Below, in pieces: positions 1 through 4,217 of a stretch of DNA of 20,320 nt (position 1 is the stretch's first letter; each line of letters opens with the position of its first letter). The notes beneath the pieces were generated by a model. That model was not told the DNA's origin, made no database searches, and saw nothing but the letters and a program-made list of their open reading frames with translations. Made by a program: the position numbers and the translations under genes. The stretch spans positions 1 to 20,320 of IMG/VR virus record IMGVR_UViG_3300009170_000037; one strand, 5' to 3'. The DNA is from a virus.

Positions 1-41
1 CTTTTTGCTGCAATATCATTAATTGAAATTTTATCTGACAT
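1..41 (-). CDS. Partial CDS, N-terminus only, unknown product
   Basis: An ATG at 39-41 opens a frame that stays open to the window edge and reads MSDKISINDIAAK. It overlaps the last 11 bases of the DpdA-like gene in another frame, matching the tight packing seen here. Only 13 residues are visible, so no family can be named. Its position directly after the QueC-like and DpdA-like genes makes another gene of the same operon plausible, for example a further deazaguanine-pathway enzyme, but that is inference from position only. Confidence 0.5.
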   Translation of the reverse strand, partial: MSDKISINDIAAK

Positions 42-822
42 ATGATTTAAATTTTCTAATGTTATAAGATATTAATTCTAATTGTTCGTCGTTAAGTTTA
101 ATATCTAAATTATCTGCTAATTTAGCTTTAGGTTTCTCTCCTACTAATCCATCTTCTAAGAATTTATTTCCTACCCATCCGTTAATAATTGGAGAGCTAG
201 TATCTAAAGAGAATATTAATTTTTCCATAATCGGATTATCTTTAAATAAAGCAAATTCGATTGGATTTTGACATCCTAATAAATGGAATTTAATATTATC
301 ATAAAAACCTGGAGAGGTATTATAATACTTTTTAATCCACCATTTTAAGAATCTAAATCTTACTGTTACCCATTCTGAATCTTTAATTAAGTCAAAAGGT
401 AAAGCAATAATATCTACTTTTTGAATAGTATATAAGTCAATACAATCTGCAATATCTTCAAAAGAATCACCTTGACATACTCCGATATATTTTAAAGTAT
501 CGTCGTCATCTCTATATTCTTTTAGATATTCAATAGCATTTGATTTAGTTCTCTCGTAATCATTAACTACATCAGGTAAAACCAGGTGGGTTGGTTTATA
601 TTCTTTAGATAAATTATATAATTCCTCAAACCCAATAGATTCACCTAATTCAAAAGCTGAATTATCTAGAATTGAGAATGGAGCAGTTTCTAATTTTTTC
701 TTATAAAAAGCTGCATACTCTTTATCTAAATTTAATAAGTGACCTAATACGTATGGATAATCATTAATAATATCGTGAATAGGAAATAATTGTTTTGGAA
801 TCTCGTGTGATATTAGTGACAT
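31..822 (-). CDS. dpdA: DpdA-like DNA 7-deazaguanine transglycosylase (TGT-fold)
   Basis: This 263-residue protein resembles the tRNA-guanine transglycosylase (TGT) barrel. Enzymes of this group swap guanine for a 7-deazaguanine base; the phage DpdA branch acts on DNA. Visible TGT-type landmarks, in order: D53 in ILDNSAF (cf. the substrate-recognition Asp in TDSGG), D84 in LVLPDV, Q117-G118 in GVCQGD (cf. QGG), a glycine segment HLLGCQNP at 180-187 (cf. MGVGTP), and D207 in FSLDTSSP (cf. the nucleophilic Asp). It is shorter than tRNA TGT (about 370 residues), and the CxCxxC...H zinc site after the nucleophile is absent. Its ATG lies one base after the stop of the QueC-like gene, so the two are probably co-translated and act in one pathway. 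The alignment is by eye. A TGT-like enzyme acting on another substrate is the main alternative. Confidence 0.75.
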   Translation of the reverse strand: MSLISHEIPKQLFPIHDIINDYPYVLGHLLNLDKEYAAFYKKKLETAPFSILDNSAFELGESIGFEELYNLSKEYKPTHLVLPDVVNDYERTKSNAIEYLKEYRDDDDTLKYIGVCQGDSFEDIADCIDLYTIQKVDIIALPFDLIKDSEWVTVRFRFLKWWIKKYYNTSPGFYDNIKFHLLGCQNPIEFALFKDNPIMEKLIFSLDTSSPIINGWVGNKFLEDGLVGEKPKAKLADNLDIKLNDEQLELISYNIRKFKSYVR

Positions 823-823
823 A

Positions 824-1681
824 TTATTTATTATAATCGTTTAAAACTTTTTCTACTGCTGATACTACATAATGCCAAGATACAGGAACTACTTCTCCTT
901 TATCATTAACATAAGCATAATCTACCGGATCTGGACGTCCTAATTTAATAAAGGCTTCTACTCGTTCTACTGAAGATGCTGATTTAAAATCTGAATACCA
1001 TTTATTATCTGATTTGATCGGCTTGTAAGAAGTATTAGTTCTTGAATAAACTTCATCAAAATTTAAACCTAATTTTTGACATAGTTTTTCACCATCTTGT
1101 AAAATATTAAATTTATCACCTTCTAAGTATGGTGTAAAGTATCCAACTTTTTCAGAACCCCAGTTTCCTAATCTAAATGCTTCATCATCAGCATCACGGA
1201 ATTCTTGACGGCAATCTGGATAAATTGCATGATCTCCAGCATGGATACCTAAAGCGATATCACAAGTTTCGCCTGTTTTCTGTGCTACAGATAATGCTAC
1301 TGCTTGAGTAATTGAAGCAAATATTTTGTTACGATTAGGTACTACGGTTGCTTTCATATTATCTTCAGCATAGTGACCTTCAGGTACATCTTCGCCGCCT
1401 GATACTAAAGCTGAATCTAATAGATCAACTAATCCATTTAATTGGATTTGGCGATATCTAATGGTAGTGTATACTGTTTCTCCATTAACTTCAATAGGTT
1501 TTTCAAATGTAGAATTAATATAATCTACCAATGATTCCGCTCTTTCAAGCTCTACTCTGTGTTTTTGACCGTAATCAAATGAAATTGCTGTTACGGTATC
1601 ATACTCTTTTAAGCAACGTAACAATAATGTACTTGAATCCATCCCTCCTGATAGGGATACTACAACGTGTTTTTTAGACAT
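824..1681 (-). CDS. queC: QueC-like 7-cyano-7-deazaguanine synthase lacking zinc cysteines
   Basis: QueC turns 7-carboxy-7-deazaguanine into preQ0 using ATP and ammonia, supplying the base for queuosine or for deazaguanine DNA modification. This 285-residue protein has the N-type ATP pyrophosphatase loop SGGMDSST (11-18), SFDYGQKH (34-41), VPNRNKIFAS (114-123) and GIHAGDHAIYPDCRQEF (145-161), all diagnostic of QueC. The C-terminal zinc region is recognisable (TSYK 217-220; DFKSASSVERVEAF 231-244), but the four expected cysteines are S218, D231, S234 and S237. The other cysteines (C23, C140, C157, C201) are elsewhere. Length is somewhat above the usual 220-240, with extra residues around 60-110. 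It is followed by the DpdA-like gene with a one-base gap. A modified base-making or base-amidating activity is possible; the QueC family itself is certain. Confidence 0.9.
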   Translation of the reverse strand: MSKKHVVVSLSGGMDSSTLLLRCLKEYDTVTAISFDYGQKHRVELERAESLVDYINSTFEKPIEVNGETVYTTIRYRQIQLNGLVDLLDSALVSGGEDVPEGHYAEDNMKATVVPNRNKIFASITQAVALSVAQKTGETCDIALGIHAGDHAIYPDCRQEFRDADDEAFRLGNWGSEKVGYFTPYLEGDKFNILQDGEKLCQKLGLNFDEVYSRTNTSYKPIKSDNKWYSDFKSASSVERVEAFIKLGRPDPVDYAYVNDKGEVVPVSWHYVVSAVEKVLNDYNK

Positions 1682-2180: not shown

Positions 2181-2217
2181 CCTAAATATAGTAAAAAATA
2201 TTCTATTTTAAAACTTT
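2181..2217 (-). promoter_or_regulatory. Promoter-like motif, copy 1
   Basis: Read on the minus strand, this 37-base stretch starts AAAGTT, contains TATTTTTTACTATATT and ends AGG just before the ATG at 2179. It matches the copy before the gp32 gene at 29 of 37 positions with no gaps, including a 16-base exact match (2185-2200). The element TATATTTA resembles the Bacteroidota -7 box TAnnTTTG. If it is a promoter, it would start transcription of the amber-containing ORF and the modification genes, with little or no leader. It overlaps the end of the DUF5522 gene. No transcript data are available. Confidence 0.45.
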
Positions 2218-2367
2218 ATTATCCTTTTGATGTTTAGGAATATAAGGACAATGCTTACATCCATTCCCGCAGCAATAACCTCTTTGTTTATGATAAAGCT
2301 CGGTAAACACTATTTTTCCGTTTTCCAGATAATAGTGTCTACCTTGCTCGAATTCCTTCTTTTCCAT
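2203..2367 (-). CDS. DUF5522 family small cysteine-rich protein
   Basis: This 54-residue protein is too short for many gene callers. It reads from ATG at 2365-2367 to TAG at 2203-2205. It carries the DUF5522 signature: YYLENGKIVFTELYH (12-26) followed by RGYCCGNGCKHCPY (29-42), with C32, C33, C37, C40 and H39 as possible metal ligands. The family is small, of unknown function, and found in bacteria (commonly Bacteroidota) and eukaryotes. Its start codon overlaps the stop codon of the ribonucleotide reductase gene by one base (TAATG), a classic coupling arrangement, so it is probably translated together with the reductase. Whether it serves the reductase is only suggested by position. The match to the family is strong by eye, and the gene could have come from a host. 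Confidence 0.85.
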   Translation of the reverse strand: MEKKEFEQGRHYYLENGKIVFTELYHKQRGYCCGNGCKHCPYIPKHQKDNKVLK

Positions 2368-4217
2368 TATACTATCTCACAAGCACCGCCTGCACATGCT
2401 GCTTGATCAGATAGATCTGTATTATCTTGTAATTCAACAACCTTTGTTAGATCAATAGCATGCAAGTGAGATGCTAATTCATTAAATTGTTCTTCAGTAA
2501 TATCTTCGAAAGGAGCCTGAGTATAAGTTCCTCCAAAGTAAGGTAATACTGATAATCCGTTAAATGTATCTTTATTCTCCCACATCCATTCTCCTACTTT
2601 TTCCCATTCACCTTCTTGAATAGATACTGTAGCAGATACGTTATTTGTATTATTACCTTTTCTATGACCTTTCTTAACCCATTTAGTATTAAAATGCTTT
2701 ACTCTTTCTAACATATCCATTACATCCTCAGATCTTAAGATAGAACCTTCCGGTGCTCTTTGAGGTACTGAAATTACAGCCTGGATAGTTGGTTTAAAGA
2801 AATCGTCTTCTACTAATTCTGGATGATTAATAGCTAGATAATTGTAGATTGCTTCGTTCTTACCTACACGAATGCGGCGGATATAATAATCATTATGCCA
2901 TGCGTGAATACCTGAAGAAGTTCCTAATACTAATGAAGAGGTACCTGAAGGCTTAACTGTAGTAACGCGTGCTGCTTTATTAATTCCAATTAATGCTGCA
3001 ACTCTAGCATTTTCTTCTTTAGCAATATCTGCAGATTGTTTTAAATCGTAGTTTAAAATAACTCCAGAACCGATTCCGGTCATACCTACTCCTAATAAAG
3101 CATCTTTCTCTGTTGTTTTCTTCCAGATATCTCTTAAATAATGGAAATCAGTATAAGAGGCTTGTAGAGATCCAATAAATGCTGCTGCTTTTACTCTTTC
3201 ATTTAAGTCTTCTTGTGATTCAATATCAGATACATTTACTTCACATAAGTTACAAAACTGATAAGGACGTAAAGCAATCTCACAGCATGGATTAGTTCCC
3301 CAATCTTTATCATTAGAGAAATATAATCCCGGTTCACCTGACCCGCTTAATTCGATTTTCTTCCATAATTTAAAGAATTCCTCTTCGTTAATTTTATGAC
3401 GGATAATAACAGCTGAGTTATTAGCTCTACCGCGTTGAGGATTTTCTTCCCACCAATTGCCGAATTTACAGGTTAACATATCTTCATCATCTAAGTTAAA
3501 CAACGAAATCAATGCTGCTCTACGAATACCACCTGATAATACTGCGTCAGCTAAAAAGCAAACGATATCGTGGCATTCTAATGAAGTTAATTTATCGCCA
3601 GTTTGTTTTCTATCAAATAATTTCTGTAGTTGGAATAAGCATTCTTTTAAAGGCTCTGGACCTGGTGCTTTACCTCCTGAAGTAATTAACTGAGCTCCTT
3701 TAGGACGAATATCTCTAAAATCAAATTTAGGAAGAGGAGATCCAGTAAAATATGATTTACATAACATTCTTACTGCATCTGACCATCCTTCAATGCTATC
3801 GTTAATTAAAAATCTTTTAGTCTTGCTAGGAATTTTAATTTCAGGAAGTTTTTCAATATGATGCTGCTGAACACTAAACCCTACTCCGCAACCTGATAAT
3901 AGTAAGAACATTGCTTCTGAGAATGATCTATAATCATCGATAGGTAAAAATGAACAGTTAAATATTCTAGCGTTATTTAATTCAATGGGAGTACCACCGA
4001 ACTGCAAAGAACGCATTGAAGGTAATACTTTTTTATCGTAAACAAATTGGTAAGCTTTTTCTATCTCTTCTTTTAAGTCTGGGAACTTGGAGATATGCAT
4101 GTTTTTATTGCGGGTAGTAATCTCATCCCACGTTTCTCTTCTTTGTAAATCTTTGTTAAATCTAGCATACTTCATGTATACTGTAATGTCGCTTAATACT
4201 TCTTGTGTTACATCCAT
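2367..4217 (-). CDS. nrdJ: Class II (adenosylcobalamin-dependent) ribonucleotide reductase
   Basis: This 616-residue enzyme reduces ribonucleotides to deoxyribonucleotides using an adenosylcobalamin-generated thiyl radical, feeding phage DNA synthesis. Visible features: FNCSF with C88 and FCNL with C322 as the disulfide-forming pair, NPCCEI with N309, C311 (radical cysteine) and E313, PSGTSSLVLGTSSGIH in the barrel, and a C-terminal CAGGAC pair (C608, C613) for re-reduction. No separate small subunit gene is nearby, as expected for class II. It is shorter than Lactobacillus-type triphosphate reductase (about 740 residues). Bases 4218-4298 upstream are AT-rich with T-runs, and I see no firm promoter there. 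The stop codon overlaps the start of the DUF5522 gene. Whether it uses di- or triphosphates cannot be decided by eye; the single-chain triphosphate type fits the NCSF and C-terminal motifs best. Confidence 0.92.
   Translation of the reverse strand: MDVTQEVLSDITVYMKYARFNKDLQRRETWDEITTRNKNMHISKFPDLKEEIEKAYQFVYDKKVLPSMRSLQFGGTPIELNNARIFNCSFLPIDDYRSFSEAMFLLLSGCGVGFSVQQHHIEKLPEIKIPSKTKRFLINDSIEGWSDAVRMLCKSYFTGSPLPKFDFRDIRPKGAQLITSGGKAPGPEPLKECLFQLQKLFDRKQTGDKLTSLECHDIVCFLADAVLSGGIRRAALISLFNLDDEDMLTCKFGNWWEENPQRGRANNSAVIIRHKINEEEFFKLWKKIELSGSGEPGLYFSNDKDWGTNPCCEIALRPYQFCNLCEVNVSDIESQEDLNERVKAAAFIGSLQASYTDFHYLRDIWKKTTEKDALLGVGMTGIGSGVILNYDLKQSADIAKEENARVAALIGINKAARVTTVKPSGTSSLVLGTSSGIHAWHNDYYIRRIRVGKNEAIYNYLAINHPELVEDDFFKPTIQAVISVPQRAPEGSILRSEDVMDMLERVKHFNTKWVKKGHRKGNNTNNVSATVSIQEGEWEKVGEWMWENKDTFNGLSVLPYFGGTYTQAPFEDITEEQFNELASHLHAIDLTKVVELQDNTDLSDQAACAGGACEIV

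Follow-up and report, generated by a model that had tools for sequence, protein, structure and literature searches.

The stretch of DNA analysed here (the window, 20,320 nucleotides) is a 20.3-kb virus fragment with a T4-like replication set, consisting of a UvsX-like recombinase, a DnaB-type helicase, a 5'-3' exonuclease, an ssDNA-binding protein and a PolA-type polymerase. On the minus strand, an intact open reading frame at 824-1681 (-) starts with ATG and encodes a 285-aa protein of the preQ0 synthase family, QueC. Directly downstream of queC, at 31-822 (-), lies a gene for a predicted DpdA-like DNA-guanine transglycosylase, the product of which is 33% identical to DpdA of Flavobacterium phage immuto 3-5A (immuto). 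The AF2 model of this protein has a pLDDT of 93.1, the best folds in a structure search are TGT (E 1.2e-7) and DpdA 7ui4, a DNA preQ0 insertase (E 9.6e-6), and 7ui4 is the top match in a sequence-profile search of the PDB (E 0.014). Further along the same strand, a ribonucleotide reductase at 2367-4217 (-) weakly matches the insertion domain of the B12-dependent (class II) type; at this position immuto encodes separate NrdA- and NrdF-type subunits. Directly downstream of the reductase gene and overlapping its end is a gene at 2209-2367 (-) for a small Cys-rich DUF5522 protein (RGYCCGNGCKHCPY; Pfam E 3.6e-20).

Assignment of the 824-1681 (-) product to QueC is supported by Pfam PF06508 (E 6.5e-36; 124 bits against a cut-off of 22), by PHROG 1550, "QueC-like" (3e-42), and by the AF2 model described below. 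The NCBIfam equivalog TIGR00364 gives 124.2 bits, below its cut-off of 150.3, and the match ends ahead of the zinc motif; a four-cysteine relative in the sister group (L129) also falls slightly below this cut-off, at 148.1. PADLOC returned a partial QueC match only. According to a 2026 survey of PF06508 (PMC13329287), canonical QueC is characterized by the zinc motif and a conserved lysine in addition to SGGxDS, YxQxHxxE, VPxRN and YPDC. The preliminary description had reported intact ATP-binding and substrate motifs, and indeed the ATP-pyrophosphatase loop SGGMDSS (residues 11-17; 1631-1651 (-)), VPNRN (1328-1342 (-)) and YPDCR (1208-1222 (-)) are all present, as are the conserved lysine and YGQKHRVE (1550-1573 (-)), which it did not mention. 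The zinc motif C(x)8CxxCxxC is absent. Alignment with 91 QueCs that have a CY...CxxCxxC motif places the four zinc-cysteine columns, in order, at S218 (1028-1030 (-)) within T-S-Y-K, D231 (989-991 (-)), S234 (980-982 (-)) and S237 (971-973 (-)), the same replacements as first described, whereas the protein retains other cysteines. We refer to this arrangement as S/D/S/S.

In Escherichia coli QueC, the substitutions Y35A, R99A, Y131A and Y189A inactivate the enzyme and do not restore queuosine, and Y189 is essential in vivo; the same paper describes zinc as necessary for QueC to function and treats C(x)8CxxCxxC as a hallmark (PMC13329287). The counterpart of Y189 in the window QueC is Y219 (1025-1027 (-)), which adjoins the first lost ligand and is invariant in 118 of 118 aligned QueCs. 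Across these 118 sequences, some of which have the zinc cysteines and some of which do not, the catalytic residues D15, S16, Y37, H41, E44, R117, N118, D150, Y154, D156 and K190, which belong to the signature of that survey, are likewise invariant, as are P184 and R240, and a class-by-class comparison found the zinc ligands to be the only consistent difference between the two kinds. Because it lacks the zinc motif, we class the window protein as a variant of the QueC family, most likely working like QueC, rather than as a canonical QueC. We found no published description of a zinc-less QueC in the open-access literature searched, coverage of which is incomplete. An earlier study did not discuss zinc in phage QueC, and noted that no individual phage QueC had been tested (PMC6884629).

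The AF2 model of the window QueC has a pLDDT of 94.9, rising to 97-98 over residues 211-250, through the former zinc site, with no metal and no template. Here residues 222-230 (992-1018 (-); pLDDT about 97) replace the zinc-knuckle loop with a hairpin of two strands, 222-224 and 227-230, that leads into a helix at 235. The model matches Bacillus subtilis QueC 3bl5 with Z 19.0 (2.6 A over 189 residues) and Erwinia QueC 2pg3 with Z 18.1. Cap9 gives the top structural Z, 19.2, which is tied with the 19.0 of QueC, and the core of QatC gives 17.8.

The S/D/S/S residues are not peculiar to the window. The QueC of immuto, an independently sequenced isolate, is 75.5% identical to the window QueC and has the same residues, and T-S-Y-K-P ... 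[SA]-D-[YF]-K-S-A-S-S-V-E-R is found in immuto and in all 80 IMG/VR relatives. The loop between S218 and D231 varies among relatives from about 9 to over 40 residues, with the motif constant. Wider searches brought the number of distinct QueC sequences with S/D/S/S to 163, all with the set fixed; they come from bacteria of the Francisellales type and from aquatic phages. Serine occupies positions 218, 234 and 237 in 162 of the 162 sequences for which codons were read, and both TCN and AGY codons are used. Use of both serine codon families at positions where serine is invariant indicates selection for serine itself and not drift. Some of the relatives came from contigs binned as Flavobacteriaceae, Pelagibacter or Woesearchaeota (L114-L119); their QueCs fall inside the phage clade, and these are probably phage contigs binned with cells. 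The QueC of L119 is cut by the contig end right after the SASS motif.

In a QueC tree from which the zinc-site columns were excluded, the S/D/S/S sequences form one clade (support 98), sister to a planctomycete type (100 together). The preliminary description had proposed a specialised family rather than decay, and this large, strongly supported clade with its invariant replacement motif supports that proposal. Bacteria branch at the base of the clade and the viruses form one group (82/90), though because of long branches the direction of transfer between bacteria and viruses is uncertain. In the planctomycete and related loci (L127, L128, L130, L132, L133, L129 and L401-L405) the ligands are partly replaced, as S/H/T/D, S/S/T/D, C/T/T/D or S/D/S/D, and this group, with its one four-cysteine member, possibly represents intermediates of zinc-site loss. 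A search starting from the TMED198 sequence among them (L133) turned up no viral relatives. Given that the four-cysteine L129/L195 sits inside the planctomycete group, the ligands may have been lost more than once within it, or this row may be misplaced.

Two further sets of zinc-less QueCs lie among phage QueCs on the opposite side of the tree from S/D/S/S. Lineage B (L357-L391) consists of viral contigs related to Cellulophaga phage phi47:1 with the motif TDYNG...NEWGxGxxxNPA[TS]xLR; its zinc positions read D/x/N/T-or-S and its catalytic residues are kept, while phi47:1 QueC itself retains all four cysteines. Lineage C consists of named phages (L433, L438, L440, L442, L444 and L452) of Rhizobium, Pseudomonas, Edwardsiella, Vibrio and other hosts, with the motif T[SA]YDG.YPP....H[SA]..LRA; it includes Pseudomonas phage Iggy, the QueC of which has none of the four zinc cysteines. 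A single origin of all zinc-less QueCs is rejected by the AU test (p=2.5e-6). A shared origin of lineages B and C is not rejected (p=0.75), and the two may share one loss. On this phylogeny, loss of the zinc ligands has evolved at least twice, leaving the predicted catalytic site untouched.

It had been suggested at the outset that zinc-less QueCs might turn out to be ordinary if most phage QueCs lacked the cysteines. This is not the case, as 13 of 18 other named-phage QueCs sampled, as well as phi47:1, keep all four. The concern is nevertheless partly relevant, since the separate lineage C group accounts for up to 43 of about 261 named-phage records with QueC, six of the 43 having been read letter by letter. 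Four Immutovirus records among the 261 are zinc-less, and zinc-less forms are a minority among named phages.

A genome scan also detected the S/D/S/S QueC in cultured gammaproteobacteria, namely Cysteiniphilum, Facilibium and two Thiotrichales strains. In six genomes of these bacteria the zinc-less form is the sole full QueC, and one PTPS/QueD, bacterial Tgt, QueF and QueA are present in six out of six. At the two loci inspected, queC is divergent from an adjacent queD-queE pair and lies among housekeeping genes, and so looks like part of a chromosomal operon rather than the remains of a prophage. Across the order, QueC was found in 15 of 33 genomes, 13 with S/D/S/S and two with four cysteines. 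Several Pirellulales-type planctomycetes carry the sister form of QueC (S/H/T/D, S/S/T/D or C/T/T/D), and in the genomes checked Tgt, QueF and QueA are present alongside it. From gene content, one bacterial lineage appears to have no source of preQ0 for queuosine other than a zinc-less QueC, and if Cysteiniphilum-type bacteria make queuosine, they do so by way of the zinc-less QueC.

Phages with the zinc-less form have a single QueC, usually accompanied by QueD, FolE, QueE and DpdA and in some cases by QueF. FolE, QueD and QueE were not seen within the 20-kb window fragment; the immuto genome encodes FolE, QueD, QueE, QueC, QueF and DpdA. All 16 long related phage records searched whole have exactly one QueC, the zinc-less form, with QueD in 15, FolE in 12 and QueF above cut-off in seven. 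A DpdA relative is present at 116 distinct S/D/S/S loci. Linkage of the zinc-less queC to queD/queE or to a transglycosylase is therefore seen in the adjacent DpdA-fold gene of the window, in the QueD of the related phage records and in the bacterial queD-queE pair.

The QueD encoded with S/D/S/S QueC (for example L002:29964-30425 and L122:4378-5094(-); 92 viral loci) no longer has two of the three histidines of the classical zinc site. Its CxxxHGH signature has become CxxxHGY, and the AHRL-type (first zinc) histidine is mostly Trp and sometimes His or Tyr. Strict coupling of zinc loss in QueC and QueD is ruled out, given that lineage B zinc-less QueCs have an HGH QueD in 27 of 27 cases and that 22 viral loci have a zinc-type QueC beside an HGY QueD; phi47:1 likewise combines a four-cysteine QueC with an HGY QueD. 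At L084 (from the record of L036, G003) an HGH-type QueD (94 bits) takes the place of the HGY type seen in its S/D/S/S relatives, pointing to gene replacement, and the L276 QueD is without the CxxxHGx motif. The QueD of phage 9g worked in E. coli (PMC6884629). It is of the HGH type, however, so that this result cannot be taken as validation of HGY proteins. There is no support for zinc or cysteine being avoided in general: the window encodes the Cys-rich DUF5522 protein, its QueC keeps other cysteines, and immuto FolE, examined by eye, keeps the usual CSHH and Cys ligands. A broader proposal is that the 7-deazaguanine branch after FolE has become zinc-independent, with QueC and QueD lacking classical zinc sites in phages and in queuosine-making free-living bacteria, as a stable adaptation that arose more than once; we offer this tentatively and regard it as rather doubtful.

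We consider it quite probable that the window protein is a working preQ0 synthase that no longer uses zinc, in which the knuckle has given way to a hairpin held by Ser and Asp, and the product of which probably goes to DpdA. Such an enzyme would convert 7-carboxy-7-deazaguanine to the amide and then to the nitrile, preQ0, in two ATP-driven steps. The four-cysteine knuckle that caps the canonical fold would be replaced by the short hairpin, and its job of holding the C-terminal cap and Y219 would be taken over by Ser/Asp hydrogen bonds together with helix capping, with Y219 and the entire predicted ATP and substrate site retained. In the window phage, preQ0 would probably be passed to DpdA, which would insert it into phage DNA in exchange for guanine; in certain relatives, reduction to preQ1 by QueF would come first.

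The preliminary description had raised the possibility of altered chemistry or partner binding. Without zinc, the protein might stop at the amide (ADG) or, like Cap9, join the deazaguanine to another molecule, giving a different DNA base or a partner protein. Cap9 joins a deazaguanine to protein from a QueC-like active site and is the top structural match of the model, dADG is known in phage DNA (PMC8306585), and QueF above cut-off is absent from nine of the 16 phage records, so that no step seen in those demands preQ0. However, Cap9 and QatC, QueC relatives with changed chemistry, both retain the zinc cysteines (PMC13329287, PMC13279940), so zinc loss is not a mark of that chemistry, and the whole functional QueC signature is kept in the window protein. 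Moreover, the gene is the sole QueC both in phages with a preQ0/DpdA pathway and in bacteria that carry the genes for tRNA queuosine; the latter encode QueF, which acts on preQ0, as well as Tgt and QueA, but no further QueC. An enzyme that halts at the amide is conceivable, yet difficult to reconcile with the presence of QueF in all six bacteria and in seven of the 16 phage records. We therefore find no support for this suggestion and think it unlikely.

Retention of a metal, through Ser and Asp oxygens or neighbouring residues, would instead make the protein a metal-swapped QueC. Invariance of S218, D231, S234 and S237 is what would be expected of ligands, and the planctomycete S/H/T/D and C/T/T/D sets include potential ligands. 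Serine hydroxyls, on the other hand, coordinate zinc and similar metals poorly, and the unrelated residues at these positions in the other zinc-less lineages (D/x/N/T, S/T/N/N and A/T/D/S) point to packing and hydrogen bonding. The model is also confident without a metal, though AF2 is often so for true metal sites. Taken together, we judge a metal-swapped site to be very unlikely. Finally, decay of the gene or a sequencing artefact, the latter also raised initially, has nothing in its favour apart from the cysteine loss itself and can be dismissed, as the residues are shared by 163 distinct sequences with mixed serine codons, among them the immuto isolate, 80 of 80 IMG/VR relatives and cultured bacteria.

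If the protein is indeed a zinc-free preQ0 synthase, several consequences follow. The data suggest that zinc, long thought essential to QueC, can be dispensed with, and removal of the motif at least twice around an apparently untouched active site would separate structure from catalysis in this enzyme. Zinc-less QueCs are ready-made candidates for zinc-free enzymes. Probable QueCs are overlooked when annotation relies on the TIGR00364 cut-off or on the cysteine motif, and their inclusion widens the set of phages likely to have deazaguanine DNA to many uncultured aquatic phages.

Among known systems, the zinc-less QueCs encoded by Iggyvirus, by Rhizobium phages and by others resemble the window QueC in keeping all the catalytic residues and losing all four cysteines, and Iggy has a DpdA/FolE/QueD/QueE cluster. 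They differ in having arisen by a separate loss, in having S/T/N/N or A/T/D/S at the zinc positions and in their shorter loop. A genome paper reports dPreQ0 genes in Iggy and cites work reporting dPreQ0 DNA modification in these phages (PMC11008142). The host presumably has a QueC of its own, as is commonly assumed for Pseudomonas aeruginosa, and the dPreQ0 reported in Iggy DNA is support, not proof, that the phage enzyme made it. All of these phage proteins are annotated as QueC, their zinc loss unremarked in the open-access papers searched. Canonical QueC (3bl5, 2pg3) shares with the window protein the fold, the ATP loop, YxQxHxxE, VPxRN, YPDC and the conserved Lys and Tyr, and shares with zinc-less QueCs the pathway neighbours QueD/QueE and DpdA or Tgt. 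The window QueC differs in the replacement of the four zinc cysteines, in its length (285 versus about 220 aa), in scoring below the NCBIfam equivalog cut-off, and in carrying a C-terminal extension as well as additional loops near residues 60-75 and 222-230. Cap9 of type IV CBASS has the QueC fold and a QueC-like active site in common with the window protein, which nevertheless does not belong with Cap9: Cap9 keeps the cysteine motif and adjoins a CD-NTase (PMC13329287), whereas the window QueC has no zinc cysteines and a DpdA-like neighbour. QatC, from qatABCD defence systems, shares the core QueC fold, but at about 400 aa it binds zinc through retained cysteines and no longer has the QueC substrate motifs (PMC13329287, PMC13279940), opposite to the pattern found in the 285-aa window QueC.
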